IMG/VR virus record: IMGVR_UViG_3300032236_000747 | Location: 186,001-250,000 of that record | DNA length: 64,000 nt | Strand: one strand, 5' to 3' | DNA from: a virus | Part shown: positions 14,933 through 60,952 of the stretch, one piece after another | Layout: every line of letters starts with the position of its first letter | Numbering within the stretch: position 1 is the first letter of the stretch | Program-made: the position numbers and the translations under genes | The notes under the pieces: generated by a model | Database searches by the model: none | Told to the model about the DNA's origin: nothing | What the model saw: only the letters and a program-made list of their open reading frames with translations

Positions 14933-17440
14933 GTGTCATCAAGAAATAGTGTTCAGCATTTTATATCAACTACTGAACCCAATAACGTACAGTTAGGTGA
15001 CGAGTGGTTAAATCCCACAACCGGTATTCTATACAAACGAACACTGGTCAATGGATCTGTTGCCTGGGCAGCTACCGGTCAAACTAACTCTAGTAATGTT
15101 ACATTGTTTAGTGGCGGTCAGTCTGGTCAAGTACTGCAGATAGTCAATAATACACCTACCTGGGTTAATACCAGTACTTTGATAGCGGTTGCTAGTAGTG
15201 GCGGCGGCGCAAGTTTAAATGCCAGCTGTTCTTTGATTATTAACGTATTTAATGCTGGTTCCGGTCCGGATAATATAGCAATAGGAGCCTATGCCCTTTG
15301 CTCAACTACTGCTGGCTGCAATATTGCACTTGGTCGTTCAGCACTGTTATCTAATACTACAGGTGTTTATAATTTTGCTGCCGGAGTCAACACTCTCGGA
15401 AGTAATACTTACGGTAATCATAATGTAGCCATTGGCGGAACAGCTCTTTACTCTAATACCAGCGGTGGATGTAATATTGCCATTGGCGTAAACACACTTT
15501 TTAAAAATACTAGCGGTTTTAATAATTTTGCTGCTGGCAGTAATGCGTTAACGTGTAATACTACAGGAAATAATAACACAGCTATTGGGTATTATGGACT
15601 GAAAAGTAACACCTATGGTATCAATAATACAGCGATCGGTTGCGGTGCACTCTGCTGCAATATTTCAGGTAATAGCAATACTGCTATTGGTTTTTATGCG
15701 TTAAGCAGAAGTAAAACATCAAATAATAACGTAGCAATCGGTTATTGTGCTTTATATTCGTTCAACGGCGGCGCAAGCTATGGAGGTTGTAATATTGCCA
15801 TAGGCACAGGTACCATGGCTTTAATAACATCTGGTTGTAATAATATTGCCATGGGCAATAATGCATTATGTTCCTCTCTTCTTAACGCCACATTTAATGT
15901 TGCTATTGGTAATAATGCAATGTCTACTACCTGTCTTTCTGACAGCAACGTAGCAATAGGACCTAGTGCTCTTAGGGGGGTTGTGGGAGTATGTAACGTT
16001 GCGTGTGATAGTGTTGCGATTGGTTCAGGTGCTTTAGGCTCTAGTGCTTGTTCTAAGTACGACGTAGCCATGGGCTATTCACCACTTAGTCAAAATACTG
16101 GTACAGGTAATGTTGCTATAGGACAGTTTGCTATGTATGCTAGTCTGTCGGCCTGCCACAGTATTGCAATCGGTAGTAATGCGTTAAGCTGTGCCTGTTG
16201 TGCTAACCTTAACATAGCACTAGGGTGCTATGCTCTAGCATGTTCATTATCGGGTACACAAAATATCGCAATCGGATCTACTGCTGCTTGCGCACTTGCT
16301 CAAGGCTACGGTAACGTGGCTATCGGATGTTGTGCTCTAGGTTTTTCAAATGTCGGATGTGATAATGTGTTCATTGGTCGAAATACTGGCCGAGGATCAA
16401 ACACTACCAGCAGCGCCGGCGTTCATAATCTGGCATTAGGTTATGGTGCATTAGTTAATAATAATGCTAATAGTTATAATATAGCCATGGGGTATCAAAG
16501 TCAGTATTGTGCTTCAAGCACATGTCAGAACATATCATTGGGTCGTTTATCAATGACGTGTGCGCTCACTGGCGCTAACAATATTGCCATTGGTTATTGT
16601 TCACTCTTTGCAAACTGCGGTCCTAATAACGTTGCCTTGGGATATGGCACAAACCCTGCCGGCGGAACTGGTAATATTTCTATAGGTAGCTATGCTAACT
16701 CTAACGTAAATGGAAACTACAATATAGCAATCGGCACATGTGCAAGCCTTGGCTGTAGCCTAGGTGCGCTATCTGGGTGTCATAATACTACTATGGGATT
16801 TAAAGCAGGATCCCTGTTGTGTTCAGCAGCCGTGCATAATCTTGCCATCGGCTGTGGCGCATTATGTAGTGCTTGTTTATCTTGTTGTAATATTGCTCTA
16901 GGTAATGGTACACTAATGTCAACTACTACCGGTAACAACAATACCGCAGTTGGTTATTGCGCAGGAACAACCAATACCTACGGAAATAATAATACATTTA
17001 TAGGTAGTGGAGCGTTTGGTGCTAGTGCTACTAGTTGTAATGCTATTACACTGGGTAATTCTAGTATTACCACAATTCGTGCTCAGGTAACTACCATTAC
17101 AGCACTATCAGATTGTCGTGATAAAACTAATATCTGCGGATTACCTATTGGACTTGATTTTATTCGTGCACTGCGTCCAGTTAAGTTTGACTGGAATATG
17201 CGAGATGGCGCCAAGGTAGGAATACCAGAAGCTGGATTTATTGCTCAAGAACTAGATGAAGTACAAACTAGATTTACAGCAACTGACTACCTAAACTTAA
17301 TCTTAAAAGAAAATACAGAACGATTAGAAGCTACTCCTGGTAAACTGTTACCAGTATTAGTAAAAGCAGTACAAGAACTAGCTCAAGAAAATGAAGATTT
17401 AAGATCTAGGATTGAAATCTTAGAAGGGAAAATAGTATAA
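14933..17440 (+). CDS. Repeat fibre with C-terminal S74 chaperone domain (first of two)
   Basis: An 835-residue fibre starting at GTG, with TAGGAG 8 nt upstream. The first ~90 residues (EPNNVQLGDEWLNPTTG...VNTSTL) are an attachment-type N-terminus. The middle is an array of 17-residue NNIAIG repeats, rich in cysteine (I count about 44 in the whole protein). The C-terminal ~120 residues match the S74 intramolecular chaperone of endosialidase-type fibres: LSDCRDKTNI, then FIRALRPVKFDWNMRDG, PEAGFIAQELDEV and a coiled-coil tail (LAQENEDLRSRIEILEGKIV). In this family the chaperone trimerises the fibre and then cuts itself off before the Ser, using a Ser/Lys pair five residues apart; S and K of S-D-C-R-D-K have that spacing. 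Confidence 0.82.
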   Translation: MSSRNSVQHFISTTEPNNVQLGDEWLNPTTGILYKRTLVNGSVAWAATGQTNSSNVTLFSGGQSGQVLQIVNNTPTWVNTSTLIAVASSGGGASLNASCSLIINVFNAGSGPDNIAIGAYALCSTTAGCNIALGRSALLSNTTGVYNFAAGVNTLGSNTYGNHNVAIGGTALYSNTSGGCNIAIGVNTLFKNTSGFNNFAAGSNALTCNTTGNNNTAIGYYGLKSNTYGINNTAIGCGALCCNISGNSNTAIGFYALSRSKTSNNNVAIGYCALYSFNGGASYGGCNIAIGTGTMALITSGCNNIAMGNNALCSSLLNATFNVAIGNNAMSTTCLSDSNVAIGPSALRGVVGVCNVACDSVAIGSGALGSSACSKYDVAMGYSPLSQNTGTGNVAIGQFAMYASLSACHSIAIGSNALSCACCANLNIALGCYALACSLSGTQNIAIGSTAACALAQGYGNVAIGCCALGFSNVGCDNVFIGRNTGRGSNTTSSAGVHNLALGYGALVNNNANSYNIAMGYQSQYCASSTCQNISLGRLSMTCALTGANNIAIGYCSLFANCGPNNVALGYGTNPAGGTGNISIGSYANSNVNGNYNIAIGTCASLGCSLGALSGCHNTTMGFKAGSLLCSAAVHNLAIGCGALCSACLSCCNIALGNGTLMSTTTGNNNTAVGYCAGTTNTYGNNNTFIGSGAFGASATSCNAITLGNSSITTIRAQVTTITALSDCRDKTNICGLPIGLDFIRALRPVKFDWNMRDGAKVGIPEAGFIAQELDEVQTRFTATDYLNLILKENTERLEATPGKLLPVLVKAVQELAQENEDLRSRIEILEGKIV
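15260..17050 (+). repeat. 17-residue cysteine-rich fibre repeats, second array
   Basis: NNIAIG-type coding repeats in the first S74 fibre. Spacing is less regular than in the giant fibre because of insertions of several residues between units. Confidence 0.8.
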
Positions 17441-17441
17441 C

Positions 17442-20400
17442 ATGACCATAGCTTTTAACATAGCTACTTTATTAAGTAGCACAGCTACTCAAACTATTGG
17501 TACTGCTACAAATAGTGCTGTTTCTGTAAACTTATCAGGCGGCGCCGCTGGCTCTTTACCCTACCAAAGTGCTCCTAATGCCACTGTATTTTTATCCGTA
17601 GGCACTAATGGACAGGTATTGCAGTTAGTTAGCGGAGTTCCAACTTGGGTTAACACCAGTACATTAATAGCAGCCGGCGCTGGTGGTGGCGCCAGTTTAA
17701 ACGCTTATTGTTCATTGATTATTCAAGGAGCAACTGTTGGGTCTAGCACTGGTCTAAACAACTTTGCCGTTGGATGTTGTGCTCTATTTGCCAACACCAC
17801 AGGTTGTAATAATATTGCCTTAGGTTTTAACAGTCTTAACGGAAATACTACAGGTAGTAATAATATTGGAATGGGCTACGGTTCTTTAAAAAATAGTGCC
17901 ACCGGCGTATGTAACATTGCTATCGGCATTCAAGCCATGTTCTGTAACTGTGGATATAATAATATTGCCATGGGCCAGGCCCTGGGTAGTAATGGTGTTG
18001 GTTCTATCAATGTTGCTATAGGTAATTTTGTTTTAAGCACAGCAGGTCATTCCGGGTGTTATAATATAGGTATAGGTAGCAACGCTCTTCAAAATAACGT
18101 AAGTGGTTGTAGCAATATTGCTCTTGGTTTTGCCTCTCTAATACTTAATAATGGCGGAAGCAATAACGTTGCGTTAGGACTGTGCGCCCTTTATAATAAT
18201 ACAGCAAGTAACAACATAGCCATTGGCAGCAATGCGCTAGTCTTAAATACTGCCAGCCAATTCAATACTGCAATAGGCATAGGTGCTGCTGCTGGACACT
18301 CTATTTTACTTAACTGTAGTAAAGGATGTAATACAGCAATAGGTTATTGTGCTTATAACTGCGTTGGCGGTTATGGTAATACTGCTATAGGTTTCTGTGC
18401 TATGAGTACAGGCACTGGCATAAACTATAATAATGTGGCACTGGGATACAAAGCTATGTCCTGTGTAGGTTGCTCAGCTAGCAGTTTTGGCAACGGATAC
18501 AATGTAGGCATCGGATATGGTGCAATGTCAAAGAGTGGTAACCAGGCCAACGTGGGCATTGGTTACCTTGCCTTAAATGGCGGACCAGCAGCTATTCCTG
18601 CTGATTTAGTAACAAATGCGTGTAATGTTGCCATAGGTACAACAGCAATGTCGTGTTCTACCGCAAGTATACATAATGTAGCAATAGGCGCCAGTGCATT
18701 AAAGGCAACAAAATGTGGGTGTTTTAATGTTGGTGTAGGAACCTGTGCAGGATACGGCATTGGTTCTCCGGCTTGTTTGAATACTTTTTTAGGAGCTTAT
18801 GCCGGTGGTGCTGGCTTGATTACCGGATGCTATAATGTTGGCATCGGTGCATGTTCAATGTATGCTGGTTCTTTTGCGGCAGGTTGTTTCAATATAGGTA
18901 TTGGGGCATGTACACACCGATTCGCTGTTAGTCCAGTTAATACCATAGCTATTGGTCAAACGGCCATGGGCGGCTCGTTGTGTACTACAGTTGATAATAT
19001 TGCTATTGGCTCATTTTCTATGTTTGGTTGCGGAATAAGTTCCAGCGGCGCTTGTAATATCGCAATTGGTTTGAACTCGATGTATACAAACTGTGCTGGC
19101 TATGGTAACGTAGCTATTGGTGCTAATACCATGGTCGGAGCTCCTTTTACTGGTTACACAGCATGCCTTAACGTGGCTATAGGACATTGTGCTCTAAATA
19201 CTGTTACTACTGCGATATCTAATATCGCTATTGGAGCTACTGCTCTAAAATCTAATACCAGCGGCTGTTATAATACAGCTATCGGATTGTGCGCATTGTA
19301 TAGTAACACTACTGGTCTTAGTAACGTAGCAATAGGAGTTAATACCTTACTTGGTAATACATACGGTTATAATAACTTTGCCGTTGGTCCAAACGCTCTG
19401 CGTTGTAATATCACAGGATGTAATAACATTGCTATAGGATATAGCGCCCTTTATAATAGCACTAGTGCCTTTAATATTGCTATTGGGTGTGCTGCCATGT
19501 GCTGTAACACTATCGGTACCTATAATGTTGCCATAGGAGACGGAGCAATACAATGTAACAGTACCGGTAAACAAAATGTAGCCGTTGGTGGTATAGCAAT
19601 GAACAGTAATACCAGCGGCTACGGTAATACTGCTATAGGTTATACTGCTATGGCATGTAATACTACCGGTGCAAACAACGTCGGAGTTGGGCGATATGCT
19701 TTATATGCTAATACTACCGGAAGTAATAATGTCGGATTAGGTGTCGGCGCACTATGCGGTAACATTACCGGAAATGCTAACATTGCTATTGGATATGATG
19801 CCCTTTATCAAAGTACAGGCGGTAACTGTAATATTTCGCTAGGTTCCTTCTCAATGCAGTCTAATACCAATGGTAGCTTTAATGTAGCACTTGGGTATCA
19901 ATCGTTGAGCTCTAATACCAGCGGTTGTTATAACATTATTATGGGATTTAACGCAGGGTATGCTAACACTGCTGGAAACTATAATAGTGCTATTGGATAC
20001 CAAGCTCTTAATAAAAATACCACTGGCTCTAATAATGTTGCTATAGGACCTAGTGCTCTTTATGGAAATACAACAGGTCAGCATAATATTGCTTTAGGGT
20101 TTAATACTTTAGTAACAGCGGGTTATGGATACTATAATGTAGCAATAGGATGTCAAGCACTATATCTTAATACTACTGGATGTAATAACGTTGCTATTGG
20201 TGGAATGGCAGGATGTACTAATACTACAGGCGTTAATAACGTATTCATAGGCTGTAATGCCAACGGTCTTGCTGCTACTTGCTCAAACACTATTACACTA
20301 GGTAATTCCAGTATCGCTACTATCCGTGCTCAGGTCACTACTATTACCGCGCTATCAGATTGTAGAGATAAAACAAATATTTGCGGATTACCAATTGGAC

Positions 20401-20675
20401 TTGATTTTATTCGTGCCCTACGCCCAGTTAAGTTTGACTGGAATATGCGAGATGGCGCCAAAGTAGGTATACCAGAAGCTGGATTTATTGCTCAAGATCT
20501 TGACGAAGTACAGAAGAAGTTCACAGCAACTGATTATCTAAACTTGATCATCAGCAACGAGGACGGGTCAAGATTGGAAGCAACGCCTGGTAAACTTTTA
20601 CCAGTTCTAGTACAAGCTGTTAAAGAACTAGCAGCCGAAGTAGATAGACTCCGTTTACTAGTAGAGCCACAATAA
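17442..20675 (+). CDS. Repeat fibre with C-terminal S74 chaperone domain (second of two)
   Basis: A 1077-residue fibre whose ATG follows the previous stop by 1 nt; GAAGGGA lies ~15 nt upstream. The N-terminus differs from that of the preceding fibre, but residues ~80-115 (GASLNAYCSLIIQGAT..., FAVGCCALFANTTG) are nearly the same as a segment of the giant fibre at ~5800-5910. A long cysteine-rich NNIAIG repeat array follows. The last ~140 residues carry an S74 chaperone almost identical to that of the first S74 fibre (LSDCRDKTNI, LPIGLDFIRALRPVKFDWN, GFIAQDLDEV) with the Ser/Lys pair kept, diverging again in the coiled-coil tail. Two S74 fibres in tandem suggest alternative or heteromeric tips. 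Confidence 0.82.
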   Translation: MTIAFNIATLLSSTATQTIGTATNSAVSVNLSGGAAGSLPYQSAPNATVFLSVGTNGQVLQLVSGVPTWVNTSTLIAAGAGGGASLNAYCSLIIQGATVGSSTGLNNFAVGCCALFANTTGCNNIALGFNSLNGNTTGSNNIGMGYGSLKNSATGVCNIAIGIQAMFCNCGYNNIAMGQALGSNGVGSINVAIGNFVLSTAGHSGCYNIGIGSNALQNNVSGCSNIALGFASLILNNGGSNNVALGLCALYNNTASNNIAIGSNALVLNTASQFNTAIGIGAAAGHSILLNCSKGCNTAIGYCAYNCVGGYGNTAIGFCAMSTGTGINYNNVALGYKAMSCVGCSASSFGNGYNVGIGYGAMSKSGNQANVGIGYLALNGGPAAIPADLVTNACNVAIGTTAMSCSTASIHNVAIGASALKATKCGCFNVGVGTCAGYGIGSPACLNTFLGAYAGGAGLITGCYNVGIGACSMYAGSFAAGCFNIGIGACTHRFAVSPVNTIAIGQTAMGGSLCTTVDNIAIGSFSMFGCGISSSGACNIAIGLNSMYTNCAGYGNVAIGANTMVGAPFTGYTACLNVAIGHCALNTVTTAISNIAIGATALKSNTSGCYNTAIGLCALYSNTTGLSNVAIGVNTLLGNTYGYNNFAVGPNALRCNITGCNNIAIGYSALYNSTSAFNIAIGCAAMCCNTIGTYNVAIGDGAIQCNSTGKQNVAVGGIAMNSNTSGYGNTAIGYTAMACNTTGANNVGVGRYALYANTTGSNNVGLGVGALCGNITGNANIAIGYDALYQSTGGNCNISLGSFSMQSNTNGSFNVALGYQSLSSNTSGCYNIIMGFNAGYANTAGNYNSAIGYQALNKNTTGSNNVAIGPSALYGNTTGQHNIALGFNTLVTAGYGYYNVAIGCQALYLNTTGCNNVAIGGMAGCTNTTGVNNVFIGCNANGLAATCSNTITLGNSSIATIRAQVTTITALSDCRDKTNICGLPIGLDFIRALRPVKFDWNMRDGAKVGIPEAGFIAQDLDEVQKKFTATDYLNLIISNEDGSRLEATPGKLLPVLVQAVKELAAEVDRLRLLVEPQ
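17720..20290 (+). repeat. 17-residue cysteine-rich fibre repeats, third array
   Basis: NNIAIG-type coding repeats in the second S74 fibre, most regular from about 19200 to 20250, where NTTG/NTSG turns and AL/A-M positions recur every 17 residues. Confidence 0.8.
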
Positions 20676-20688: not shown

Positions 20689-20735
20689 TTGACTTCTTAT
20701 AATTAACTGTATATATTAGTATATCGTTAAGAGGA
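20689..20735 (+). promoter_or_regulatory. sigma70-like promoter of the sugar-modification cassette
   Basis: TTGACT (20689-20694), a 17-nt spacer, and TATATT (20712-20717) precede the GT9-like gene; GAGGA at 20731-20735 is its Shine-Dalgarno. A host-type promoter here, after late fibre genes, suggests the cassette can be expressed early and separately from the fibres. Confidence 0.6.
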
Positions 20736-20739
20736 TTCA

Positions 20740-21675
20740 ATGGCTAAAACAATAATCTATATCGACGGCGGCGCCGGTCGTGTTATCGCAGCAATACCTG
20801 CACTACTCAAATTCCACAGATTAAACCCGAACTTAGATTGGGCAATCGTTATCCCTGCTTGGGATTATCTGCTTTGGAGCATTCCAGAACTTCAAGATCG
20901 CGTCTATGGCGCAGATACGAAAGGTATTTGGGACAATGTAATCAAAGACGCAGATGAAATAATGACTCCAGAGCCCTACAGACTACCTGCTTATTTCCGT
21001 CAAGAAATCAGCTTAGTTGAAGGATTTGATCGTGAGATCAATGGTACCAAAGATCACAGCGATCTAGGTGTTCCAAAAATGATTTTCAACAAAACTGAAG
21101 AGAAATGGGCAGTAAACACCATTGCTGATGTCAAGCAACAACAGCAAAAAGCTAAGACTATTGTCATTCAACCATTTGGACGCGGCGCTACATTAGATCG
21201 CAATGACGTCATTGACAGCGCAAGTCGCAGTTTGAGTGCTGATGCGTATATCAGTTTAACTAAAAAACTTGCCGCAAGATATAACATGATCTTCTTTGGC
21301 GAACAACAACTCCAAATCACCACAGATAGTTACACAGTTAAACTACCTCCGCAGACTGATCTGCGTATGTGGGCATCATTGATTAGCTATGCTGATTACT
21401 TTGTTGGTGTTGATAGTGTGGGACAACACATGGCTCGTGCTACAGGTTGTCCAGGAACAGTTATTTTTGGATCAACATTCCCAGTTAACACAAGTTATCC
21501 TGATTATTTCCAGATCATTGAAAGAGCAGGACAAAAGAAATATAGTCCGATTCGTATCACTGGATTAGACAGTGTGTTAGCGGATCGTTACAATGATACA
21601 ATGATGGACTTTGAAGAAAGTGAAATTACTTCAATCTACAATCAAATTGTAGCGGACATTGAGAAAACAAAATAA
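20740..21675 (+). CDS. Glycosyltransferase family 9 (heptosyltransferase)-like protein
   Basis: A 311-residue protein with the layout of GT-B family 9 enzymes: an N-terminal GAGRVIAAIPAL loop (residues ~10-21) in the place of the GDxLxxxP motif, and a C-terminal VGVDSVGQHMARATGCP stretch (about residues 222-238) matching the GxDSGxxHxA nucleotide-sugar site of heptosyltransferases, then VIFGST. Family members move a sugar, often heptose, onto lipopolysaccharide or a protein. The acceptor here is unknown. First gene of the cassette; its stop overlaps the next start (TAATG). Confidence 0.7.
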   Translation: MAKTIIYIDGGAGRVIAAIPALLKFHRLNPNLDWAIVIPAWDYLLWSIPELQDRVYGADTKGIWDNVIKDADEIMTPEPYRLPAYFRQEISLVEGFDREINGTKDHSDLGVPKMIFNKTEEKWAVNTIADVKQQQQKAKTIVIQPFGRGATLDRNDVIDSASRSLSADAYISLTKKLAARYNMIFFGEQQLQITTDSYTVKLPPQTDLRMWASLISYADYFVGVDSVGQHMARATGCPGTVIFGSTFPVNTSYPDYFQIIERAGQKKYSPIRITGLDSVLADRYNDTMMDFEESEITSIYNQIVADIEKTK

Positions 21676-23357
21676 TGTATAACATACTAGCAATAAACCC
21701 CGGACACAATGGTTCTGCTGCGCTAATATCAGACGGCAACGTTGTGTTCTATGCTGAAGAAGAGCGCCTAAGTCGCATGAAATATGACGGTAATCCATTT
21801 CGTGCTATGCTTACAGTACTAGAAGAAACACACGTAGACGAACTAGTCATTGGCGGTACCAGTCCAGACCTAGTCAAACTTCCGTGGACCTACGAAGATG
21901 CCTATACAGCATTGGTTCGTAAGTTTAATCCTAGTGTAAAAGTTACGAACTTGGGTCATCAACACCACCTGGGACATGCTGCCGCCGCATTTTACAACAG
22001 TGGATTTACTACAGCAGTAGCAGTTATTGCTGACGGTGCTGGCAGTGTGCATCAAGCTAAAATGGGGGAAGATGATAATGCTCCAATGACTTCTGGATTT
22101 GAAACAGAAAGCATTTATAAATGTGCATATCCTGTGACTTTTGATACTGTCTATAAGCGTTACGCAGACGGCAACGCTAGATATTTTGACAATGGTGTAC
22201 AAGAGTTTGATAACTCTGTTACTATTACCAAAGCCTACGAAGCAGTTAGTAACTATCTAGGATTTGGTTTTATTGAAGCAGGTAAGACCATGGGGCTCGC
22301 ACCTTATGGAAAATATGATCCAAATATTCCTAACTTTTTTGTAGAAGGCAAAGGTAACAAAAACTTATTAGAACCTATGTATCCAGCGGGGGCACTAATA
22401 GATGAGAACAGATTTGCTTACCTTCGCAGAACACAAGACCCTAAAGTTTGGCATCATGATTTTAGTAAAGTGCGCGACATAGATAAAAATCTAGCATGGC
22501 ACATACAGCAAGAATCACAAGAGCAAATCGGCGATCTCATAGAACTAGCAGTTCAAAAGACAGGTGAAAAGAATGTAGTTATCGCTGGCGGATATGGTTT
22601 AAACTGTGTTGCTAACTATTACTACCTCAAACGTTTCCCCGATCTAAATATCTATGTAGATCCAGTTAGTCACGATGGCGGAACTGCCCTAGGCCTAGCA
22701 TTGTTAGCTTGGCACCTATACAGTAATAGTAGTGTTCCTAATCCTCTTACTTCTTTGTATCTAGGTATTGATCCTGATTTAACTGAAATCAATACAGCTG
22801 AATTTAAGGTGCAGGACGTTACCGCAGACGACATAGCAGAACTATTAGTAAATCAAAATATTGTTGCTATGTTTAATGGTCGTGCAGAAGCAGGTCCTAG
22901 AGCATTAGGTAATCGTAGTATCATGTTTGATCCACGTAGACCAGACGGCAAAGACTTTGTCAACAAGGTTAAAGGTCGTGAATGGTTCCGCCCATTTGCT
23001 GGATCGGTATTAGAAGAACACGCAGACAAATGGTTCGAGATGCGAGGGCTAAAATCTAGTCCGTTTATGATGTATGCTATCAATGTGTTGCCTGAAAAAC
23101 TCGGAGAGATTCCTGCGGTTACACACGTAGACGGTACATGCCGTGTTCAGACAGTTAGTAAAACTGACAACGAAGCATATTACAACTTAATCAATGCGTT
23201 TTATAAAAAGACAGGTGTACCGATGGTGTTCAATACTAGTTTTAATCTAGCAGGCGATCCTCTAGTAGAAACAGTTGACGACGCTATTGACACACTTCGC
23301 CGCTCGGATATAAAATATCTATATCTACCTGCGTTAAACAAACTAATATCAAAATAA
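21675..23357 (+). CDS. O-carbamoyltransferase, NodU/CmcH family
   Basis: A 560-residue protein matching the NodU/CmcH carbamoyltransferase family along its whole length. The N-terminus (NPGHNGSAALISDG, then EEERLSR) and HQHHLGHAAAAFYNSG (about residues 95-110) belong to the Kae1-like domain that makes carbamoyl-adenylate from carbamoyl phosphate and ATP and binds the metal through His residues. The C-terminal domain has GRAEAGPRALGNRSI (~400-415) and FNTSFNLAGDPLVET (~517-531), which line the transfer site. The product would be a carbamoylated sugar hydroxyl. Such genes occur in aquatic T4-like phages; acceptors there are unproven. The ATG overlaps the previous stop by one base. Confidence 0.9.
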   Translation: MYNILAINPGHNGSAALISDGNVVFYAEEERLSRMKYDGNPFRAMLTVLEETHVDELVIGGTSPDLVKLPWTYEDAYTALVRKFNPSVKVTNLGHQHHLGHAAAAFYNSGFTTAVAVIADGAGSVHQAKMGEDDNAPMTSGFETESIYKCAYPVTFDTVYKRYADGNARYFDNGVQEFDNSVTITKAYEAVSNYLGFGFIEAGKTMGLAPYGKYDPNIPNFFVEGKGNKNLLEPMYPAGALIDENRFAYLRRTQDPKVWHHDFSKVRDIDKNLAWHIQQESQEQIGDLIELAVQKTGEKNVVIAGGYGLNCVANYYYLKRFPDLNIYVDPVSHDGGTALGLALLAWHLYSNSSVPNPLTSLYLGIDPDLTEINTAEFKVQDVTADDIAELLVNQNIVAMFNGRAEAGPRALGNRSIMFDPRRPDGKDFVNKVKGREWFRPFAGSVLEEHADKWFEMRGLKSSPFMMYAINVLPEKLGEIPAVTHVDGTCRVQTVSKTDNEAYYNLINAFYKKTGVPMVFNTSFNLAGDPLVETVDDAIDTLRRSDIKYLYLPALNKLISK

Positions 23358-24176
23358 ATGCAACAACAATACTATTTTATATCAGGATTGCCGAGAAGTG
23401 GATCGACATTATTAACATCTATTTTAAAGCAAAATCCAAAGTTCACTGCGCAAATCAGTGATCCGTTACATGATTATGCTAGAAATATTTTAACAACAAC
23501 TCATGCGAGTGTAGGTATGGAAGCAGCAGTACCTATTCCTAAGAGACAACATCTTATTAAAGGTTTGTTTAACTCGTTTTATGAAGATGGCAACGAAGTT
23601 TGTTTTAATACAAACAGGGCCTGGACTGCTAATACTACTTTATTAAAAGACCTCTTTCCTTATACAAAGATTATTATTTGTATTAGGGATATTCCTTGGA
23701 TTTTAGATAGCTTCGAACAACTAAATGCTAAAAATCCGTATACCATTAAAGCATTGTATCACCACCAAGACCTTGGCACAGTTTATCATAGATGCGCTTC
23801 TTTAATGGATCCTAATAATGGTTATGTAGCAGGACCAATGACTTGTTTAAAACAAGCGTTGTTCAGTAATGAAAAAGAAATGTTGTGTATTGTTGACTAT
23901 GATGCCCTGGCTAAAAATCCAGAAGAGACAATGCGTAAAGTTTACAGCTTTATTAATCAACCATATTACAATCACGATTTTAACAATGTAGAAGATAGCT
24001 ATGATGAGTTTGACGAACAAACAAACATCAAGGGATTGCATACAGTACGCAAACAGGTGGAATACCGCCAAAGAAAACCAATCATACCTTCAGACCTGTG
24101 GCAACAAAATGTTGCTCAAAGTTTTTGGAAGTTTGATTTTGATCATATAAAGAGACAAATGTTATGGATAGAATAA
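23358..24176 (+). CDS. PAPS-dependent sulfotransferase
   Basis: A 272-residue protein with the 5'-phosphosulfate loop FISGLPRSGSTLL at residues 7-19 and a 3'-phosphate-binding strand/helix IIICIRDIPWILDSFEQ at about 104-120, both characteristic of sulfotransferases that move sulfate from PAPS to a hydroxyl of a sugar or tyrosine. Downstream, ...CIVDYDALAKNPEETM fits the family's usual Y(D)-L-xx-NP segment. It starts immediately after the carbamoyltransferase stop and its end overlaps the next gene. An APS-kinase-like gene 2.7 kb downstream could supply PAPS, linking the two. Confidence 0.8.
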   Translation: MQQQYYFISGLPRSGSTLLTSILKQNPKFTAQISDPLHDYARNILTTTHASVGMEAAVPIPKRQHLIKGLFNSFYEDGNEVCFNTNRAWTANTTLLKDLFPYTKIIICIRDIPWILDSFEQLNAKNPYTIKALYHHQDLGTVYHRCASLMDPNNGYVAGPMTCLKQALFSNEKEMLCIVDYDALAKNPEETMRKVYSFINQPYYNHDFNNVEDSYDEFDEQTNIKGLHTVRKQVEYRQRKPIIPSDLWQQNVAQSFWKFDFDHIKRQMLWIE

Positions 24177-24970
24177 GTAGAAAATTTAATAAACAACTGC
24201 AGGAACCACCTGCACCACAACAACAAGCACCCCAGCAACAACCACGCAGAGTACTAGTTGGTACTCCTTGTTATGATGGAAGGATTGAAGTTTGGTATGC
24301 AAATAGCCTTATACAAACTATTAGAGCAGGTCTGCAACTAGGTGTTGAAATTTTACCTATATGGTTAAGCTACGATGCTCTTATCCAACGAGCACGCAAC
24401 GACTTAATGGGTATTATGCATGAAACCGGGTTTGATGATATTGTTTTTATCGACAGCGATATAGAGTGGGCTCCCGAAGACTTCTTTAAACTACTAAATT
24501 ATCCAGTTGATGTAGTAGGCGGAACTTATCCCAAGAAAGGGGATATGGAACAATATGTGGCAAAAATTCTAGACCCTCAACGACAAAGAGATCCTAACAC
24601 AGGTTTATTACAAGTAGACGGTTTAGGCACTGGATTTTTACGTATGAGCAAGCGTGCTGTAGACTATCTATGGGATGTAAGCACACCATATGAAGAAAAA
24701 GACCAAGGAAAGGTCCGTCGTTGGATCTTTGATGTAGAGATTCAAAACGGGGAAATCTTTAGCGAAGATATACTAGTATGTCAAAAACTAAACAACGCAG
24801 GACTCAACGTATGGTTAGATCCTACTATTACTTGTGCTCACATCGGAACAAAAAGATATCAAGGAAACTTCGAAGCATGGTTTGGCAAATTACAAACAGG
24901 ACAACCTGCAGTTCCGTCAGGGTATGGCTTAACAGGAACTCCACCTGATATTAAATCACTTTACGAATAA
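24164..24970 (+). CDS. GT-A fold glycosyltransferase
   Basis: A 268-residue protein. A Pro/Gln-rich N-terminus (about residues 12-27) precedes a nucleotide-diphospho-sugar transferase domain: VLVGTPCYDG at ~31-40, RNDLMGIM, and the metal-binding DxD-type motif in FIDSDIEWAPED (~95-106), followed by GGTYPKKG and GLGTGFLRMSK. Similar proteins are frequent in phages that modify surface sugars or their own virion. The start overlaps the sulfotransferase gene by 13 nt. Donor and acceptor are unknown. Confidence 0.75.
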   Translation: MDRISRKFNKQLQEPPAPQQQAPQQQPRRVLVGTPCYDGRIEVWYANSLIQTIRAGLQLGVEILPIWLSYDALIQRARNDLMGIMHETGFDDIVFIDSDIEWAPEDFFKLLNYPVDVVGGTYPKKGDMEQYVAKILDPQRQRDPNTGLLQVDGLGTGFLRMSKRAVDYLWDVSTPYEEKDQGKVRRWIFDVEIQNGEIFSEDILVCQKLNNAGLNVWLDPTITCAHIGTKRYQGNFEAWFGKLQTGQPAVPSGYGLTGTPPDIKSLYE

Positions 24971-24972
24971 CT

Positions 24973-25620
24973 ATGGCAAGATTTAGTGTAGATAAAAACA
25001 TGGCCACTAACGCACCAGTGGCTCAACCAACGCTAGGGGTATACACTCCTTTACAAATGCCTGCTACATTTGACAAATATACCATTGCATTAGATAGAGA
25101 TGGTGTGCTAGTTGAATGTGCCGATGCTATTACAGGCCCGGAAACATTTAAACCTATTGACGGATCTTTTAGAGCAGTAGCTTTAATAAGAAGCAAAGGT
25201 CACAAAATTGTTGTGTTATTTGATCAACCAGGCGTAATACAACGAAAAGTTACAGTTGAACAAGTTGAAGATTGTAATCGTCATATGTTAAATCTATTAG
25301 GTCAAGCAGGTTGTACAAGTATCGACGGAATTTGGTATAATACAAGTAGTCGCAAAGACGACGCATATGCCAAACCTAACACAGGTTTATTTAAACATGC
25401 TGAAGCAAACAGTCCAGGTGTAAAACTTTCTGGAGGCGTGTATGTCGGTGATACCATTGACGATCTAGTAATGGCAGATAAAGCAGGGGCAACTCCTGTA
25501 TTAGTCCTTACTGGCAAAGGAAAAAAGACAGCAGAAATGTTAAAGAAGCCTATCTATCGTATGTTAGAACCCAAAGTTAAGATATTTGATAATCTATTAC
25601 AATACGCGGAGAGCCTATGA
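24973..25620 (+). CDS. HAD phosphatase resembling D,D-heptose 1,7-bisphosphate phosphatase (GmhB)
   Basis: A 215-residue HAD-superfamily protein. ALDRDGVLVE (residues 39-48; nucleophile D41, acid D43) is followed by a FDQPGVIQRKVTVE segment equivalent to the NQxGIxRG loop of GmhB, IDGIWYNT, AKPNTGLF, and the acidic motif VYVGDTIDDL (~156-165), ending with LVLTGKGKKT, all in GmhB order. The zinc loop of GmhB is absent: the Cys and His residues expected between DGI and KP are missing, so it is a zinc-less relative. With a GT9-like gene in the same cassette, a role in activated heptose supply is plausible but unproven. A second ATG at 25000 could be the true start. Confidence 0.7.
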   Translation: MARFSVDKNMATNAPVAQPTLGVYTPLQMPATFDKYTIALDRDGVLVECADAITGPETFKPIDGSFRAVALIRSKGHKIVVLFDQPGVIQRKVTVEQVEDCNRHMLNLLGQAGCTSIDGIWYNTSSRKDDAYAKPNTGLFKHAEANSPGVKLSGGVYVGDTIDDLVMADKAGATPVLVLTGKGKKTAEMLKKPIYRMLEPKVKIFDNLLQYAESL

Positions 25621-26531
25621 AACCGTTAGGCGGCAGTGAGTTAATGTATTACACAGTTGACAAACTGTTAAAACCGGGTTGGCAAGACAAAGTTAATCTC
25701 ATACTAAGTTTTTGCGATCATCAATATATCGATTCTACCAAGAAAAATGTAGTATGGCAACAACTTAATACAAATGAAGAAACTGTTGCTGCCATGTCTG
25801 ATCCTACGTTTATTGAAAAAGTAGACGCATTTGTTTGGGTCAGTTATTGGCAATATGAAAAGTTTAGAAAAGAGTTTAATGTTCCTGCATATAAAAGCAT
25901 AGTTATACGAAATGCTACTCAACCATGCCAGTGGATACCTAGAGAACGGGGAAAGTTTAAACTAGTGTACTCTTCAACTCCGTGGAGAGGTCTTGATATT
26001 TTAATCAAGGCTATTAGAATATTAAATAGACCCGACATCGAACTTGATGTATTTTCAAGTACAAAAATATATGGCCCTGCTTTTGAAAAACAAACGGAAG
26101 GCCAGTTTGATTGGTTGTGGGAAGAATGTAGGAAAACTCCTGGAGTAAACTATCATGGATATCAGCCCAACGATGTAGTCCGTGAAACAGTTAAAAAGGC
26201 ACATATAATGGCCTATCCTAACACCTTCGAAGAAACAAGCTGTATAGCTGCTATAGAAGCGTTAACGGCGGGTTGTAAGATGCTTACTACCGGTTACGGT
26301 GCACTACCAGAGACATGTGCTGGTTGGGCAGATTATGTACCCTATGGTCCTAATAGAGACGTTCTAGCCGAACGGTTTGCGTATGCTCTTAACAACACAC
26401 TCAACGAATATTGGACAAACAGTACACAAGAGCTGTTAAAAAGACAAAATGAATACTACAATGGATTTTATTCATGGAATACTCGTATGCCTGAATGGCA
26501 AAGTTTAATAGATAAGTTATCAAAGGGCTAA
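25617..26531 (+). CDS. GT-B glycosyltransferase, family 4-like
   Basis: A 304-residue protein with a GGSELM N-terminal motif, KLVYSSTPWRGLDILIKA at about 118-135 (the start of the C-terminal Rossmann domain of GT4 enzymes) and EETSCIAAIEALTAGC at ~203-218, which is the E-x7-E donor site region. The family moves sugars from nucleotide donors. The N-terminal domain is shorter than usual for GT4, and GGSE falls at residue 5, so the gene may be an N-terminally trimmed version. It overlaps the previous gene by 4 nt (ATGA). Confidence 0.78.
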   Translation: MKPLGGSELMYYTVDKLLKPGWQDKVNLILSFCDHQYIDSTKKNVVWQQLNTNEETVAAMSDPTFIEKVDAFVWVSYWQYEKFRKEFNVPAYKSIVIRNATQPCQWIPRERGKFKLVYSSTPWRGLDILIKAIRILNRPDIELDVFSSTKIYGPAFEKQTEGQFDWLWEECRKTPGVNYHGYQPNDVVRETVKKAHIMAYPNTFEETSCIAAIEALTAGCKMLTTGYGALPETCAGWADYVPYGPNRDVLAERFAYALNNTLNEYWTNSTQELLKRQNEYYNGFYSWNTRMPEWQSLIDKLSKG

Positions 26532-26532
26532 A

Positions 26533-26898
26533 ATGACTAAAAAATTTGATTGGAAGAAAGAGACTGTACAGATGTTAGGTCGCTGGCAACCATGGCATGC
26601 TGGACATAGAAAGTTATTTGACCGTGCTATTTCTAAAACTGGCCAAGTATGTATTATGATTCGTGATTGTGAAGGATGGAATGATAGCAATCCTTTTAAA
26701 AAAGAAGAAGTAGAAAACTTTATTCATGCAGATTTAAAGGAAACTTACGAAGGACAGTACTGCATTTTATTTGTACCTAACATTACAAATATCACTTATG
26801 GCCGTAATGTTGGTTATAAAATTGAAAACGAAGTTTTTGACGAAGACACACATGCAATCTCGGCAACAGAAATTAGAAAATCGATGGGACTCAAATGA
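26533..26898 (+). CDS. Small HxGH nucleotidyltransferase
   Basis: A 121-residue cytidylyltransferase/adenylyltransferase-fold protein with GRWQPWHAGHRKLF (residues 16-29, HxGH) and a C-terminal ISATEIRKSMG (110-120, the ISSTxIR signature). The family joins NMP to phospho-compounds (NMN, pantetheine-phosphate, glycerol- or sugar-phosphates). Inside this cassette the likely task is activation of a phosphorylated sugar or polyol as a nucleotide donor. An ATP-sulfurylase role would complete the PAPS route but the motif context does not support it. It overlaps the next gene by 4 nt. Confidence 0.75.
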   Translation: MTKKFDWKKETVQMLGRWQPWHAGHRKLFDRAISKTGQVCIMIRDCEGWNDSNPFKKEEVENFIHADLKETYEGQYCILFVPNITNITYGRNVGYKIENEVFDEDTHAISATEIRKSMGLK

Positions 26899-27515
26899 CC
26901 AAAAAGATATTAGTAATGGGACTTCCAGGCGCAGGCAAGACTACATTTACGCAAGAACTTGTTAAAAAACTAATGCTAACACATACTGTTAGTTGGTTTA
27001 ACGCAGACAGTGTACGTGAACAGTTTAACGATTGGGATTTTAGTCCAGAAGGTCGAAAAAGACAAGTAGAGCGTATGAGTAAAATGGCCAATGATGCTAC
27101 TGCTGATTATGCTATCTGCGATTTTGTATGCCCTACAGATGAACTAAGGTCTATATTCAACGCCGATGTTGTTATATGGTTAGATACTATCAAGGAAGGT
27201 AGATTTGAAGATACTAACAAGGCATTTGTTGCTCCTACAAAATATGATTTTAGGATCACTGATTGGAGCGATACATGGGTTAAAAGTGTAGCAGCAAGTT
27301 TAACTAAACCTGCAAGCGAAAGTCATTTACGCAGCATTGCTAAGGCTGTGAGCTGGAGAACACTAGGTACTGTTGATACTTTTATATTAAGTTTTATTAT
27401 CACAGGTCAGGCAAAACTTGCTCTAGCGATTAGCGGAGTTGAAATCTTTACCAAAATATTCTTATTTTGGGGACACGAACGCATTTGGCATAAGGTCAAA
27501 TGGGGAAAACAATAA
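26895..27515 (+). CDS. APS-kinase-like P-loop kinase fused to a DUF2061 membrane domain
   Basis: A 206-residue two-part protein. Residues 1-~130 form a P-loop kinase: Walker A GLPGAGKTTFTQEL (8-21) and FNADSVREQFNDWDFSPEGR (36-55), which closely follows the APS-binding segment of adenylylsulfate kinase (CysC), the enzyme making PAPS. The last ~60 residues (SIAKAVSWRTLGTVDTF, then two hydrophobic stretches and HERIWHKVKWG) match DUF2061, a small two-helix membrane domain. Together this suggests a membrane-tethered PAPS-forming or sugar-phosphate kinase. It closes the cassette that also contains a sulfotransferase. Substrate specificity is inferred from motif similarity only. Confidence 0.75.
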   Translation: MTKKILVMGLPGAGKTTFTQELVKKLMLTHTVSWFNADSVREQFNDWDFSPEGRKRQVERMSKMANDATADYAICDFVCPTDELRSIFNADVVIWLDTIKEGRFEDTNKAFVAPTKYDFRITDWSDTWVKSVAASLTKPASESHLRSIAKAVSWRTLGTVDTFILSFIITGQAKLALAISGVEIFTKIFLFWGHERIWHKVKWGKQ

Positions 27516-27532
27516 ATACTAGCATAAAGGAG
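27513..27532 (+). promoter_or_regulatory. Late-type box plus Shine-Dalgarno before the 100-residue gene
   Basis: TAAATA at 27513-27518 overlaps the end of the kinase gene; AAAGGAG at 27526-27532 lies 6 nt before the ATG at 27539. The leadered class of late box. Confidence 0.5.
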
Positions 27533-27538
27533 TCAAAT

Positions 27539-27841
27539 ATGACACAAATTACATTAAACACACCAGTAGAAGTATCGCCAGCGGTTGCTGCTGTAACTTC
27601 AAATCAAGTTACCGTACTAGAAGTTAGAGAAAACTTTGGTTGGGACTATGATCCAGCTCAACCAGGCGGATTCTTCGGACCAGGTCGTCCTCAATCAGTT
27701 GAAGTTACTGTTTTGCTAGACAAAGAACGTAATATTCAACGTACCTTGGTAGCATGGGAAGGCGAAGCTTATGTAGCAGTTCGCGGAACATGGACTGACG
27801 CAGATCTAGCTGCTCGTATTGCTACTATTCTCGGTGCTTAA
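27539..27841 (+). CDS. Conserved-looking small protein of unknown function
   Basis: A 100-residue protein; the ATG at 27539 is chosen because AAAGGAG sits 6 nt upstream, rather than an in-frame ATG at 27500 that overlaps the kinase gene. The middle reads ENFGWDYDPAQPGGFFGPGRP, then a beta-rich segment (VEVTVLLDKERN, AWEGEAYVAVRGTWTDADLAARI). No known domain is recognised. It has its own late-type box, so it may be a minor virion or assembly protein. Its stop overlaps the convergent Nudix gene by 4 nt. Confidence 0.65.
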   Translation: MTQITLNTPVEVSPAVAAVTSNQVTVLEVRENFGWDYDPAQPGGFFGPGRPQSVEVTVLLDKERNIQRTLVAWEGEAYVAVRGTWTDADLAARIATILGA

Positions 27842-28260
27842 ATTAAGTCTAATAATAACTCGATCTTAGTTTTTATAGATCGGTTATTTAGGCTAGTTTT
27901 CACGCCCTGGTGCAATGGTCTAGGCCATGCGTTTAAATCGCACCATGCATATCCCGAATGCTCTTCATTGAGCGTCGGGATAAACTCTTTTTCGACTATC
28001 AAAATATAGGTATTGTATTGAAACTGTTGATCGTTGCTAGTGAATAGTTCCAAGGGAACTACTTTTTTTATAGCAGGCGTCTTACCTACTTCTTCTTCTA
28101 TTTCTCTTTTTAGTGCGTCATACGGCGTATGATCTTCGGGTTCTTTTTTCCCGCCAACAAGACCCCAGGTTCCTGCTGTTTTACCTTGAGTTCTTAACAG
28201 GAATAAAAATCTTTTTGTATCTTTTGTTAGAAATAAACCGCCACTACAAACTATCTGCAT
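27838..28260 (-). CDS. Nudix hydrolase
   Basis: A 140-residue Nudix-fold protein. The Nudix box reads GGKKEPEDHTPYDALKREIE followed by EEVG; it keeps the two Gly, the upstream Glu and the RE..EE.G core but has one residue more than the canonical G-x5-E-x7-REUXEEXGU spacing. Nudix enzymes cleave nucleoside diphosphates linked to another group; T4 carries NudE, and phages use them for house-cleaning or RNA decapping. Here it is the last gene of the leftward gp14-gp15-Nudix unit, beginning directly after the gp15 stop. Confidence 0.82.
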   Translation of the reverse strand: MQIVCSGGLFLTKDTKRFLFLLRTQGKTAGTWGLVGGKKEPEDHTPYDALKREIEEEVGKTPAIKKVVPLELFTSNDQQFQYNTYILIVEKEFIPTLNEEHSGYAWCDLNAWPRPLHQGVKTSLNNRSIKTKIELLLDLI

Positions 28261-29643
28261 TTATAATACCAAACTCCAGGCACCTCTGTCATACACTCCT
28301 TCAAAGGATTTGGTCCATTGCTCACCGTCCCATTTGTATTGTATGCCTGTATATGTATTAGTTATATAGGTAGCTTCTGTAGTTTGTGCAGAATTGAAAA
28401 TAACAGACCAGTTAGTTCCATTAGTCTGTATAATATCGTTTGCGTTTGCTGTAAACTGTGTTGAATCAGCATTGCGCCAAGCGTGTGCCTCTGGCGGAAT
28501 ATCTTCTAGTATCAAATATCTAGTATTTGCTTTGAGGACTCCGGGGTTAAATGTTATTGGATTTATAATGGCATCTATAGTTCCTCTACCAGCAATAACA
28601 GTATTAGACGGAATAGTGTCTACGTCAAAGTTTAAATTTAACGCAAAATCATTTAATGGATTTAATGAAACAAACGCTACAATCTGTCCGCCACTAGGAG
28701 TAGTTAATCTGATTTGACTTAGTCCTGCTTTAAATTCGCCGGGATAGATATCTAGTAATGTTTGCCATTGTATACTGTGTACAGACGAAGGACTTGTTAG
28801 TCCATCATATATTGCTGGATCTTTAATAGGCAATAGTGTAGCAGTATTATCTAACACTAGTAAATCAAAGTTTCCGGGAGTAACTGTAGTGCGAGCAGTT
28901 GGGGTTTGTCCGTCAAACAAATCTATCAATCCACCATAAGTTGAGTAAGGTGCCTCTGCTAGTGATCCTGTTGGTTCTGCGTATATGTTAGCAATAATCT
29001 TAGTAATAATACCCATCTGTTTTACTTTAGCAGGAGGTGTGATCCAAATAGGACTAGTAAAACTTAGACTACAAACGCTGATGTCACTTTCTAATCCTTG
29101 TGGTATACTGCGACTTTCAAAGGTCATGCTAGATATTTCTAGATAACTTAAACTTGTCCAATCTAGATAGTTGTCTGAACTTTGTATTTCTAAAGCAGGA
29201 TTAAACAGTACAACTATCTGCTCCCATAGTTGTAGTTTTTGCTCAGTGTTTGTTGTCCATAGGTCGGCATTAAATGTAACCTTATATGGACTAGGCATAA
29301 TACGCTCTACGGTATAGTTCTTTCCTTGCGCATTATAATATTCAGTGCCGTCCGGTGTAGTAGCCCTTTCCCTGATTTGTATAGAATCAATGAATGTAGG
29401 ATCTTGGACTCGTTCTCTATCAAACTGTATGTCTTTAATATAGCAGCTAATAAAAGGTGCACTTTGAACTACGTTCTCGCTGTTCTTACTAACAATCTGC
29501 GCTACTTGCCTAGTCATGTCTCCATATCTTACAGGTACCTGTGTGAGATTGCCTTTAGCATCCTTGTAGCTAAAGTTACTCATTACACGAATAAACTGTG
29601 TAAGAAAACGTCTTACCTGTCCGTCATAAAAGAAATCACTCAT
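28261..29643 (-). CDS. 15: gp15-like proximal tail sheath stabiliser
   Basis: A 460-residue protein starting MSDFFYDGQVRRFLTQFIRV, which matches the start of T4 gp15 (FYNSSFRRY...) and the longer gp15 of aquatic T4-like phages, including VERIMPSPYKVTF, TSNTEQ-type helix (TTNTEQKLQLWEQI) and NPALEIQSSDNYLDWTSL. Gp15 caps the top of the tail tube and sheath and joins the tail to the neck. The C-terminal ~200 residues are an added beta-rich region not present in T4 (272 residues). Its ATG overlaps the gp14 stop (ATGA). Confidence 0.8.
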   Translation of the reverse strand: MSDFFYDGQVRRFLTQFIRVMSNFSYKDAKGNLTQVPVRYGDMTRQVAQIVSKNSENVVQSAPFISCYIKDIQFDRERVQDPTFIDSIQIRERATTPDGTEYYNAQGKNYTVERIMPSPYKVTFNADLWTTNTEQKLQLWEQIVVLFNPALEIQSSDNYLDWTSLSYLEISSMTFESRSIPQGLESDISVCSLSFTSPIWITPPAKVKQMGIITKIIANIYAEPTGSLAEAPYSTYGGLIDLFDGQTPTARTTVTPGNFDLLVLDNTATLLPIKDPAIYDGLTSPSSVHSIQWQTLLDIYPGEFKAGLSQIRLTTPSGGQIVAFVSLNPLNDFALNLNFDVDTIPSNTVIAGRGTIDAIINPITFNPGVLKANTRYLILEDIPPEAHAWRNADSTQFTANANDIIQTNGTNWSVIFNSAQTTEATYITNTYTGIQYKWDGEQWTKSFEGVYDRGAWSLVL

Positions 29644-53810: not shown

Positions 53811-54489
53811 TCAACCTTTTACCTGTGTTCACTGTAGCAAGAGTTTTATGCAAGAGAAAACTCTCTATGCCCACATGTGTGAAAACAAACGCAGAGCCAT
53901 GCAGAAAGACGAGAAGCGTGTTCAGGCAGGCCTTCTAGTCTTTAATAGATTTTTTAGACTTACACAAAACGCCAAGAAAGACAAGACCTATGAGGACTTC
54001 ACTAAGAGTCCTTACTACAATGCGTTTGTTAAGTTTGGATCATTCATTTGTAATGTCAATCCTTTGTACCCTGACAAGTTTATTGACTATGTTATTAAGA
54101 GTGGCGTTAAGTTAGATCATTGGGCCAGTGATTCATTGTATGACAAATATCTCTATGACATCATCAAAACTGAACCAGTTGAATCAGCAGTTCAACGAAC
54201 TGTTAATCACATGATGGATTGGGGTGATACCAGCGGAGCACAGTTTAATCATTACTTTAACTATGTTAATATAAACAGATCTGTACAAGACATACGCAAT
54301 GGAAAAATAACTCCTTGGATATTGTTGAATACCAAAACAGGCAAGGAACTTTTATCAAAGTACAGCGACGAACAGTTAGAACTTATTGCTCCTGCCCTAG
54401 ACATTCCATATTGGTCGAGAAAGTTTAAACAGGTACCGGCGGATGTTGCGTTGGTGAAAGAAATATGCAAAGAGGCAGGCATAGAATGA
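53794..54489 (+). CDS. Zinc-finger protein conserved in aquatic T4-like phages
   Basis: A 231-residue protein (start MIALVDQPFTCVHC at the ATG 53794; an earlier in-frame start at 53725 would overlap the previous gene by 86 nt). The N-terminus holds a C2H2/C2HC-type finger, C-V-H-C-x12-H-x2-C (CVHCSKSF...LYAHMCENKRR). Then LLVFNRFFRLTQ, KDKTYEDFTKSPYYNAFVKF and a helical remainder. I recognise the family but no function is assigned; a nucleic-acid-binding role is likely from the finger. Confidence 0.68.
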   Translation: MIALVDQPFTCVHCSKSFMQEKTLYAHMCENKRRAMQKDEKRVQAGLLVFNRFFRLTQNAKKDKTYEDFTKSPYYNAFVKFGSFICNVNPLYPDKFIDYVIKSGVKLDHWASDSLYDKYLYDIIKTEPVESAVQRTVNHMMDWGDTSGAQFNHYFNYVNINRSVQDIRNGKITPWILLNTKTGKELLSKYSDEQLELIAPALDIPYWSRKFKQVPADVALVKEICKEAGIE

Positions 54490-54797
54490 ATCAAGATGTG
54501 TTATTGAAAAAGTTATGTCAGGAATTTGGCGGAACTGCAACTGTTAGTGAACAAAGATTTGTAAGGATCCACCCGCCGGGCTCCTGGGATTTTATGAGCA
54601 CCATTGCAGATTATAAATCCACAATAATAGAAGGTGTTGCTATACATATTCCGAAAGATAGGCTCGACGATTTTTTAAGTGTGTTTGATGAACAGAAGTA
54701 TTTAGAAATGCAAATAAGGGAAAACATACCTGCTGTAAAAATAGCCTACGAACGCTATCGAATGTTGTTAAAAATGTGTGGGAGCGACTATGCCTGA
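54486..54797 (+). CDS. Small protein of unknown function
   Basis: A 103-residue alpha/beta protein (FGGTATVSEQRFVRIHPPGS, IIEGVAIHIPKDRLDDFLSV). ATG overlaps the previous stop (ATGA) and its own end overlaps the DnaE-like gene by 8 nt. No domain recognised. Confidence 0.58.
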   Translation: MNQDVLLKKLCQEFGGTATVSEQRFVRIHPPGSWDFMSTIADYKSTIIEGVAIHIPKDRLDDFLSVFDEQKYLEMQIRENIPAVKIAYERYRMLLKMCGSDYA

Positions 54798-55368: not shown

Positions 55369-55732
55369 GATTTTTGACTAGTTGTATTGAACGTCTTTTG
55401 ATTCGTTTTTCTGCTATGTCCCCTAGATTTACAGTGGGTCCGAAAACGATTTCTATGTCTTTGCTATTAAATGTTTTGATATAGGGCCGGTAATAGATCA
55501 TTGTATCTTTTAGGAAAATATTAATAGGTATGCGTCTATTTGACTCCCACCACCAAGTTTCTCCTAGTTCTAAAAATACCTTTTTCTCATCGTCCGATTT
55601 CATGCATTCCAGATCATAGATACTGGTAACATAATCGTCGTAGTTGATAACAATTCCTACATATTCCACGTCGTTTGACTTGACGCAGGTAATAAATGGA
55701 AACTTTTCCTGAAACGTGTTCTTGATTGTCAT
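55349..55732 (-). CDS. Conserved hypothetical protein on the opposite strand
   Basis: A 127-residue protein (FPFITCVKSNDVEYVGIVIN, WWWESNRRIPINIFLKD, FGPTVNLGDIAEKRIKRR) that I recognise as a small, widespread aquatic T4-like phage gene of unknown function. It runs leftward, its 3' end overlapping the DnaE-like gene by 20 nt. The basic C-terminus could bind nucleic acid. Confidence 0.65.
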   Translation of the reverse strand: MTIKNTFQEKFPFITCVKSNDVEYVGIVINYDDYVTSIYDLECMKSDDEKKVFLELGETWWWESNRRIPINIFLKDTMIYYRPYIKTFNSKDIEIVFGPTVNLGDIAEKRIKRRSIQLVKNPKKTRG

Positions 55733-55741
55733 GAGTTAAAA

Positions 55742-55747
55742 TAAATA
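55742..55747 (+). promoter_or_regulatory. Late-type box, leaderless class
   Basis: ATAAATA (TAAATA at 55742-55747) ends 4 nt before the ATG at 55752. Confidence 0.55.
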
Positions 55748-55751
55748 CATA

Positions 55752-59631: not shown

Positions 59632-59635
59632 CAAG

Positions 59636-59641
59636 TATTTA
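59636..59641 (-). promoter_or_regulatory. Late-type box for the AlgH-like gene
   Basis: TAAATA on the minus strand, ending 4 nt before the ATG at 59631. It faces another late-type box 6 nt away. Confidence 0.55.
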
Positions 59642-59646
59642 TTGGT

Positions 59647-59652
59647 TAAATA
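59647..59652 (+). promoter_or_regulatory. Late-type box for the nucleotidyltransferase gene
   Basis: TAAATA on the plus strand, ending 7 nt before the ATG at 59660. Confidence 0.5.
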
Positions 59653-59659
59653 CTAGACC

Positions 59660-60352: not shown

Positions 60353-60356
60353 ACTC

Positions 60357-60385: not shown

Positions 60386-60391
60386 ACTAGT

Positions 60392-60892: not shown

Positions 60893-60896
60893 CCCA

Positions 60897-60909: not shown

Positions 60910-60938
60910 AGCGGTGCAAAAAGATTTTCCGGGTATAT

Positions 60939-60944: not shown

Positions 60945-60952
60945 CGTATATT

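Follow-up and report, generated by a model that had tools for sequence, protein, structure and literature searches.

The DNA described here, hereafter the window, is a stretch of 64,000 nucleotides (positions 186001-250000 of the 354,680-base virus record IMGVR_UViG_3300032236_000747) from a giant uncultured phage of the jumbo group. At 20740-27515 it carries eight open reading frames (ORFs), g1 to g8, on a single strand (+), with gaps of no more than 2 bases and overlaps of no more than 13 between them; coordinates of g1 to g9 and of the fibre genes are window positions, and positions in the full record are marked as such. A first-pass annotation had proposed that these genes form a cassette for sulfated and carbamoylated sugars directly behind the fibre genes, and that outline was upheld. 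All eight packed genes were present, the named enzyme families were recovered by Pfam (GT9, carbamoyltransferase, Sulfotransfer_3, HAD, Glycos_transf_1, CTP_transf_like and APS_kinase with DUF2061; g4 by PHROG only), and both families and position support carbamoyl and sulfate chemistry on sugars beside the fibres. The best explanation, which we hold with about even confidence, is a fibre-linked glycan cassette that supplies its own activated sulfate, probably placing a carbamoylated, sulfated sugar on phage fibres or on the host.

A gene cassette behind the fibre genes

14933-17440, +: flanking fibre protein (YadA-like repeats; S74 chaperone domain), candidate substrate
17442-20675, +: second flanking fibre protein (repeats; S74 chaperone domain), candidate substrate
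20689-20717, +: sigma70-like promoter candidate, TTGACT-17-TATATT
20740-21675, +: g1, GT9-type glycosyltransferase with the heptosyltransferase fold (Pfam GT9; AlphaFold and Foldseek)
21675-23357, +: g2, NodU/TobZ-type O-carbamoyltransferase (Pfam N and C domains; PDB matches)
23358-24176, +: g3, 3'-phosphoadenosine 5'-phosphosulfate (PAPS)-dependent sulfotransferase (Pfam Sulfotransfer_3, 4e-15; PAPS motifs)
24164-24970, +: g4, GT-A-like glycosyltransferase containing a DSD motif (PHROG match; motif read from sequence)
24973-25620, +: g5, HAD phosphatase resembling GmhB, motif II altered (PDB, NCBIfam, alignment)
25617-26531, +: g6, GT4-type glycosyltransferase (Pfam Glycos_transf_1, 6e-11)
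26533-26898, +: g7, HxGH nucleotidyltransferase of 121 residues, proposed minimal ATP sulfurylase (Pfam CTP_transf_like)
26895-27515, +: g8, adenosine 5'-phosphosulfate (APS)-kinase-like domain fused to a DUF2061 membrane domain (Pfam)
27500-27841, +: g9, small protein conserved at the cassette end, with no candidate function

The two genes on the upstream flank encode proteins that match tail-spike families, both with the S74 domain, in agreement with the placement of the cassette immediately after fibre genes. Judged by the ratio of nonsynonymous to synonymous substitution rates (dN/dS) against a related viral locus, L003, the cassette genes are real: the ratio was 0.02-0.09 for g1, g2, g4, g5 and g8, with dS saturated for g3 and g6, and g7 not present in L003. 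The promoter of its own with which the cassette had been credited fared less evenly. The candidate site occupies the sole notable gap, one of 64 bases before g1, and by eye a comparable pair stands in the same place upstream of the GT9 gene in four to five relatives (L002/L003, L066, L068 and L119); set against this, promoter-like sites in the region numbered 25 versus 24.4 in shuffled sequence, which is no excess.

Predicted enzymes for sugar transfer, carbamoylation and sulfation

Three of the proteins, g1, g4 and g6, are predicted to transfer sugars. The first scored 29 bits against Pfam GT9 (cut-off 22), and its AlphaFold model (mean predicted local distance difference test, pLDDT, 75) lay nearest in Foldseek to GT9, WaaC, WaaF and TibC proteins; it fell below the NCBIfam equivalog cut-offs for lipopolysaccharide (LPS) heptosyltransferases (I, III and RfaQ; the best score, against III, was 28 of 170.2 bits), and no relatives were found in bacterial genome contigs. 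The assignment of g4 is weak, with a PHROG glycosyltransferase match at 4e-5 and no Pfam match. Like the O-carbamoyltransferases NodU and TobZ, g2 has both domains over its full length (Carbam_trans N 75.4 bits, C 206.9 bits) and matches PDB carbamoyltransferases including TobZ and GdmN at E 1e-51 to 1e-44; it differs from NodU itself in lying far under the NodU equivalog cut-off, at 144 of 1000 bits.

The suggestion that the sugar might be heptose-derived held in part. In its favour are the fold of g1, a GmhB-like g5 and an HldE-adenylyltransferase-like gene at record 55407-55871, far from the cassette; against it, neither a PfkB kinase of the HldE type nor a SIS-type GmhA (SIS_2) was found in the phage genome, so that a full ADP-heptose pathway was rejected and a complete heptose route is not encoded. 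The phosphatase g5 matches GmhB in the PDB (3e-12) and NCBIfam PRK08942 (7e-25; 87.6 of 178 bits, under the cut-off), retains HAD motifs I, III and IV, has the motif II Thr substituted in all aligned relatives, and is restricted to the closest relatives in a viral locus search. Among known systems, the autotransporter O-heptosyltransferases TibC and Aah share the GT9 fold with g1 and likewise sit beside genes for repetitive surface proteins, although the match of g1 to TIGR04414 is marginal (E 0.005) and its use of heptose is only a candidate function. Two further genes may be recorded here: another P-loop kinase at record 54307-54774, near the HldE-type gene, and an NAD-dependent sugar epimerase/dehydratase at record 28213-29139 that resembles UDP-glucuronate decarboxylase.

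Glycosyltransferases and a carbamoyltransferase could also act on hydroxymethylated bases; other phages do contain cytosines that carry carbamoyl groups or sugars. Hypermodification of DNA is nevertheless highly improbable here and was rejected: the sole gene of the thymidylate synthase family matches Pfam strongly over its full length and reads by eye as canonical ThyA, no Tet_JBP match was found (though the search control was also silent), and the cassette stands among structural genes.

No sulfotransferase gene other than g3 was found across the 354-kb genome (~388 ORFs), and the 5'-phosphosulfate-binding and 3'-phosphate-binding motifs (5'-PSB and 3'-PB) of g3 contain P12, R13, G15, R110 and S118, invariant over 16 aligned sequences. 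Whether sulfate goes to a sugar or straight to a fibre tyrosine, with the sugar genes a separate matter, can be weighed from several sides. Minimal sets of fibre, sulfotransferase and APS kinase without glycosyltransferases exist (viral locus L018, and a Rhodoferax plasmid with the order fibre assembly, sulfotransferase, APS kinase), and weak PDB matches link g3 with tyrosylprotein sulfotransferase 1 (E 0.014). The matched part, however, is hardly larger than the PAPS-binding motif; g3 and its relatives mostly have Ser or Thr at the position of the catalytic Glu of tyrosylprotein sulfotransferases, and in this window the sulfotransferase sits among glycosyltransferases. Direct tyrosine sulfation of a fibre protein is thus quite improbable.

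The kinase and nucleotidyltransferase pair

The first-pass annotation had cast the nucleotidyltransferase as an activator of the sugar, a role that it does not appear to have: g7 is instead the partner of the APS-kinase-like gene. Counterparts of g7 and g8 form one kinase-nucleotidyltransferase protein in many viral loci, and both match one PHROG family. In g8 the APS_kinase domain scored 32.9 bits (cut-off 21.1) and DUF2061 67 bits, the top Foldseek matches of the kinase model are APS kinases, and the P-loop (G8-K14) together with D59, R62, F70 and R75 of a DGDxxR...F..DR pattern are invariant and align with the APS kinase 2yvu. The protein fails the NCBIfam apsK equivalog cut-off (24.4 of 138.7 bits), and its lid region is shorter than in canonical haloarchaeal APS kinase domains. 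When the kinase alone served as query, a sulfotransferase lay within four genes in 12 of the 30 loci fetched, compared with the one in this entire genome.

The same pairing extends well beyond phages. A plasmid search found haloarchaeal plasmids that hold the kinase fused to a g7-type domain, the kinase domain being a canonical APS kinase and the C-terminal part bearing the g7 motifs GRWQPxHxGH, NP, GRxVGY and ISxTxxR; a sulfotransferase lies just upstream of the fusion in all eight loci read. A genome scan further showed that many genomes of SAR11, among the most abundant bacteria in the ocean, carry the pair as two adjacent genes. Forty marine genomes, all bearing the pair, were compared (38 Pelagibacterales, one SAR86 and one other gammaproteobacterium): neither Sat nor CysD was found in any of these partly incomplete genomes, an APS_kinase match was present in all 40 and was the sole one in 32, and Sulfotransfer_3 was present in 26. 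In those with sulfotransferases, partly incomplete as they are, the g7-type protein is the only candidate ATP sulfurylase.

The simplest account, to judge from sequence comparison, is that g7 and g8 would be a minimal, split PAPS synthase feeding g3, because the two are fused in relatives, the haloarchaeal APS kinase lies by a sulfotransferase, and sulfotransferase-bearing genomes lack Sat and CysD; g7 thus probably serves sulfate activation. The likeness is to PAPS synthase (PAPSS), in which an APS-kinase domain is likewise fused or paired with an HxGH nucleotidyltransferase and linked to sulfotransferases; unlike the ATP sulfurylase of PAPSS, g7 has about 120 residues, is NadM-like and contains no ATP-sulfurylase domain by the Pfam cut-off. 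We would give an even chance to the proposal that g7 exemplifies a minimal ATP sulfurylase of a third type: an HxGH protein resembling NadM that, together with its APS-kinase partner, makes PAPS for sulfotransferases in jumbo phages, haloarchaeal plasmids and SAR11 cells that lack both known ATP sulfurylases.

Several observations weigh against this assignment. The closest proteins to g7 are nicotinamide mononucleotide (NMN) adenylyltransferases of the NadM type, and its score against the Sat-type ATP sulfurylase family PF01747 is 13.4 bits, under the cut-off of 24.3, with matches in six of 20 g7 family members (best E 0.0015). In some phages, moreover, the kinase stands without one of these companions: L003 has kinase and sulfotransferase with no g7 on its 193-kb contig, L005, L014, L016 and L034 carry kinase and NodU with no detectable sulfotransferase, and Stenotrophomonas phages bear the kinase-nucleotidyltransferase fusion without one. 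The 40 marine genomes span 0.7-1.3 Mb, those of SAR11 being mostly partial single-cell assemblies of which the completeness is not given, so that single absences weigh little and forty jointly weigh more. Finally, no sulfotransferase lies within 6 kb of the pair in SAR11 neighbourhoods, and the SAR11 sulfation link therefore rests on gene content only.

Much of this would suit a kinase-adenylyltransferase pair that, like NadR or HldE, activates some small phosphorylated compound, a reading to which the NadM resemblance and the fusion in phages without sulfotransferase both lend weight, as does the C1/betaine-type neighbourhood in which, from gene names read by eye, the SAR11 pair is set. We regard it as fairly unlikely, since the kinase is APS-kinase-like rather than ribokinase- or NRK-like and the haloarchaeal version is a canonical APS kinase beside a sulfotransferase. 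The phage genome also holds a separate NMN adenylyltransferase candidate, a NadM-Nudix fusion at record 337122-338141, because of which a purely NAD-related role for g7 was rejected.

Synteny, precedents and the likely target

Related phages share a conserved syntenic core of GT9, NodU and sulfotransferase genes, found in that order in 17 of the 21 representative viral loci with a GT9 gene, a share biased by the fetching of many of these loci with the sulfotransferase as query. The co-inheritance implied by the first reading of the cassette was thereby found, and loci fetched by g1 alone tell a similar story, with the full order in three of six (L119, L128 and L130) and a sulfotransferase nearby in L142 and L143. 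Most of the 17 loci with this order lie behind fibre genes, with nudix and tail-sheath-stabiliser genes further on, and their variable neighbours include, by eye, a second sulfotransferase, an aminotransferase, an epimerase and a glycosyltransferase-methyltransferase. Another cassette type was seen in L005, L014 and L016, made up of radical-SAM-like, SGNH-like, NodU and kinase-DUF2061 genes, with no sulfotransferase detected.

The first-pass annotation knew of no description of this combination, and its parts differ in this respect. In the annotated cyanophages P-SSM2 (PSSM2_307-313), S-CAM1 (SXBG_00222-00216) and S-SSM7 a GT9-type gene adjoins NodU beside tail-fibre genes, as it does here, so the plan of the cassette is not wholly new, and a sulfotransferase, too, is present in the single-virus record AG-345-O18. 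In the cyanophages these two genes are followed by an HldE-type nucleotidyltransferase, a PfkB kinase and HAD genes, with an epimerase in P-SSM2 and S-CAM1, whereas the present cassette has a sulfotransferase, a further two glycosyltransferases and the APS-kinase-type pair in place of the PfkB, HldE-type and epimerase genes. What would be new is g7 with g8, and with it a possible minimal ATP sulfurylase; among the titles and abstracts listed by searches of the open-access literature, none described this gene combination, a small ATP sulfurylase or SAR11 sulfate activation of this type. The cyanophage 'carbamoyltransferase' has earlier been read as serving pyrimidine or antibiotic synthesis (PMC9146016, PMC5705922), a reading called into question by the place of the NodU-type gene in a fibre-side sugar cassette in all three cyanophages. 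Within P-SSM2, PSSM2_311 (L146, 13015-13359) is annotated as a phosphoheptose isomerase but looks, from its sequence, like a small HAD phosphatase.

As the cassette adjoins fibre genes in phages that infect widely differing hosts, fibres are favoured as its target, a judgement in which belief and doubt are about equally balanced, with the host surface next. The same enzymes would then act on the host envelope (LPS or capsule), altering a receptor sugar and so blocking superinfection or avoiding the loss of progeny on debris. In bacteria, enzymes of the GT9 and NodU families act on the sugars of LPS core and Nod factors, receptor-changing genes tend to adjoin fibre genes because fibres bind receptors, and a sigma70-like promoter suits expression by the host polymerase. 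Yet the GT9-NodU core is kept from cyanophages to this jumbo group though host glycans differ, and the cassette was found to contain no acyltransferase, flippase or polymerase, leaving modification of the envelope a possible but, on balance, doubtful role.

With fibres as the preferred target, a tentative sequence of events can be set out. Sugars would be transferred by g1, g4 and g6, g1 most likely using heptose or a similar sugar from an ADP-sugar; g2 would attach a carbamoyl group and g3 sulfate. For the latter, g7 would convert ATP and sulfate to APS and pyrophosphate, and g8 would convert APS and ATP to PAPS, the donor for g3. The modified substrate would be the repeat-rich fibres just upstream, giving virions that bear acidic, carbamoylated sugars. 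If this is true, such phages would carry the whole set of enzymes for sulfating their fibres or their hosts, an unusual virion chemistry, and the small pair would explain SAR11 sulfotransferases in cells without a known ATP sulfurylase.

The fibre repeats themselves (NIAIG type, 14933-20675) are unusually cysteine-rich, as are the fibre-side proteins PSSM2_304 and 306 of P-SSM2. The genes downstream of the cassette encode a nudix protein, a tail-sheath stabiliser and a head-tail adaptor. Of these, the sheath stabiliser has its nearest cultured relatives, at 33-36% identity, in jumbo myoviruses, among them Sinorhizobium phage Phosso and Agrobacterium phage Atu_ph07. Towards the far end of the window, at 58000-64000, the G+C content climbs from about 0.40 to 0.47-0.51.

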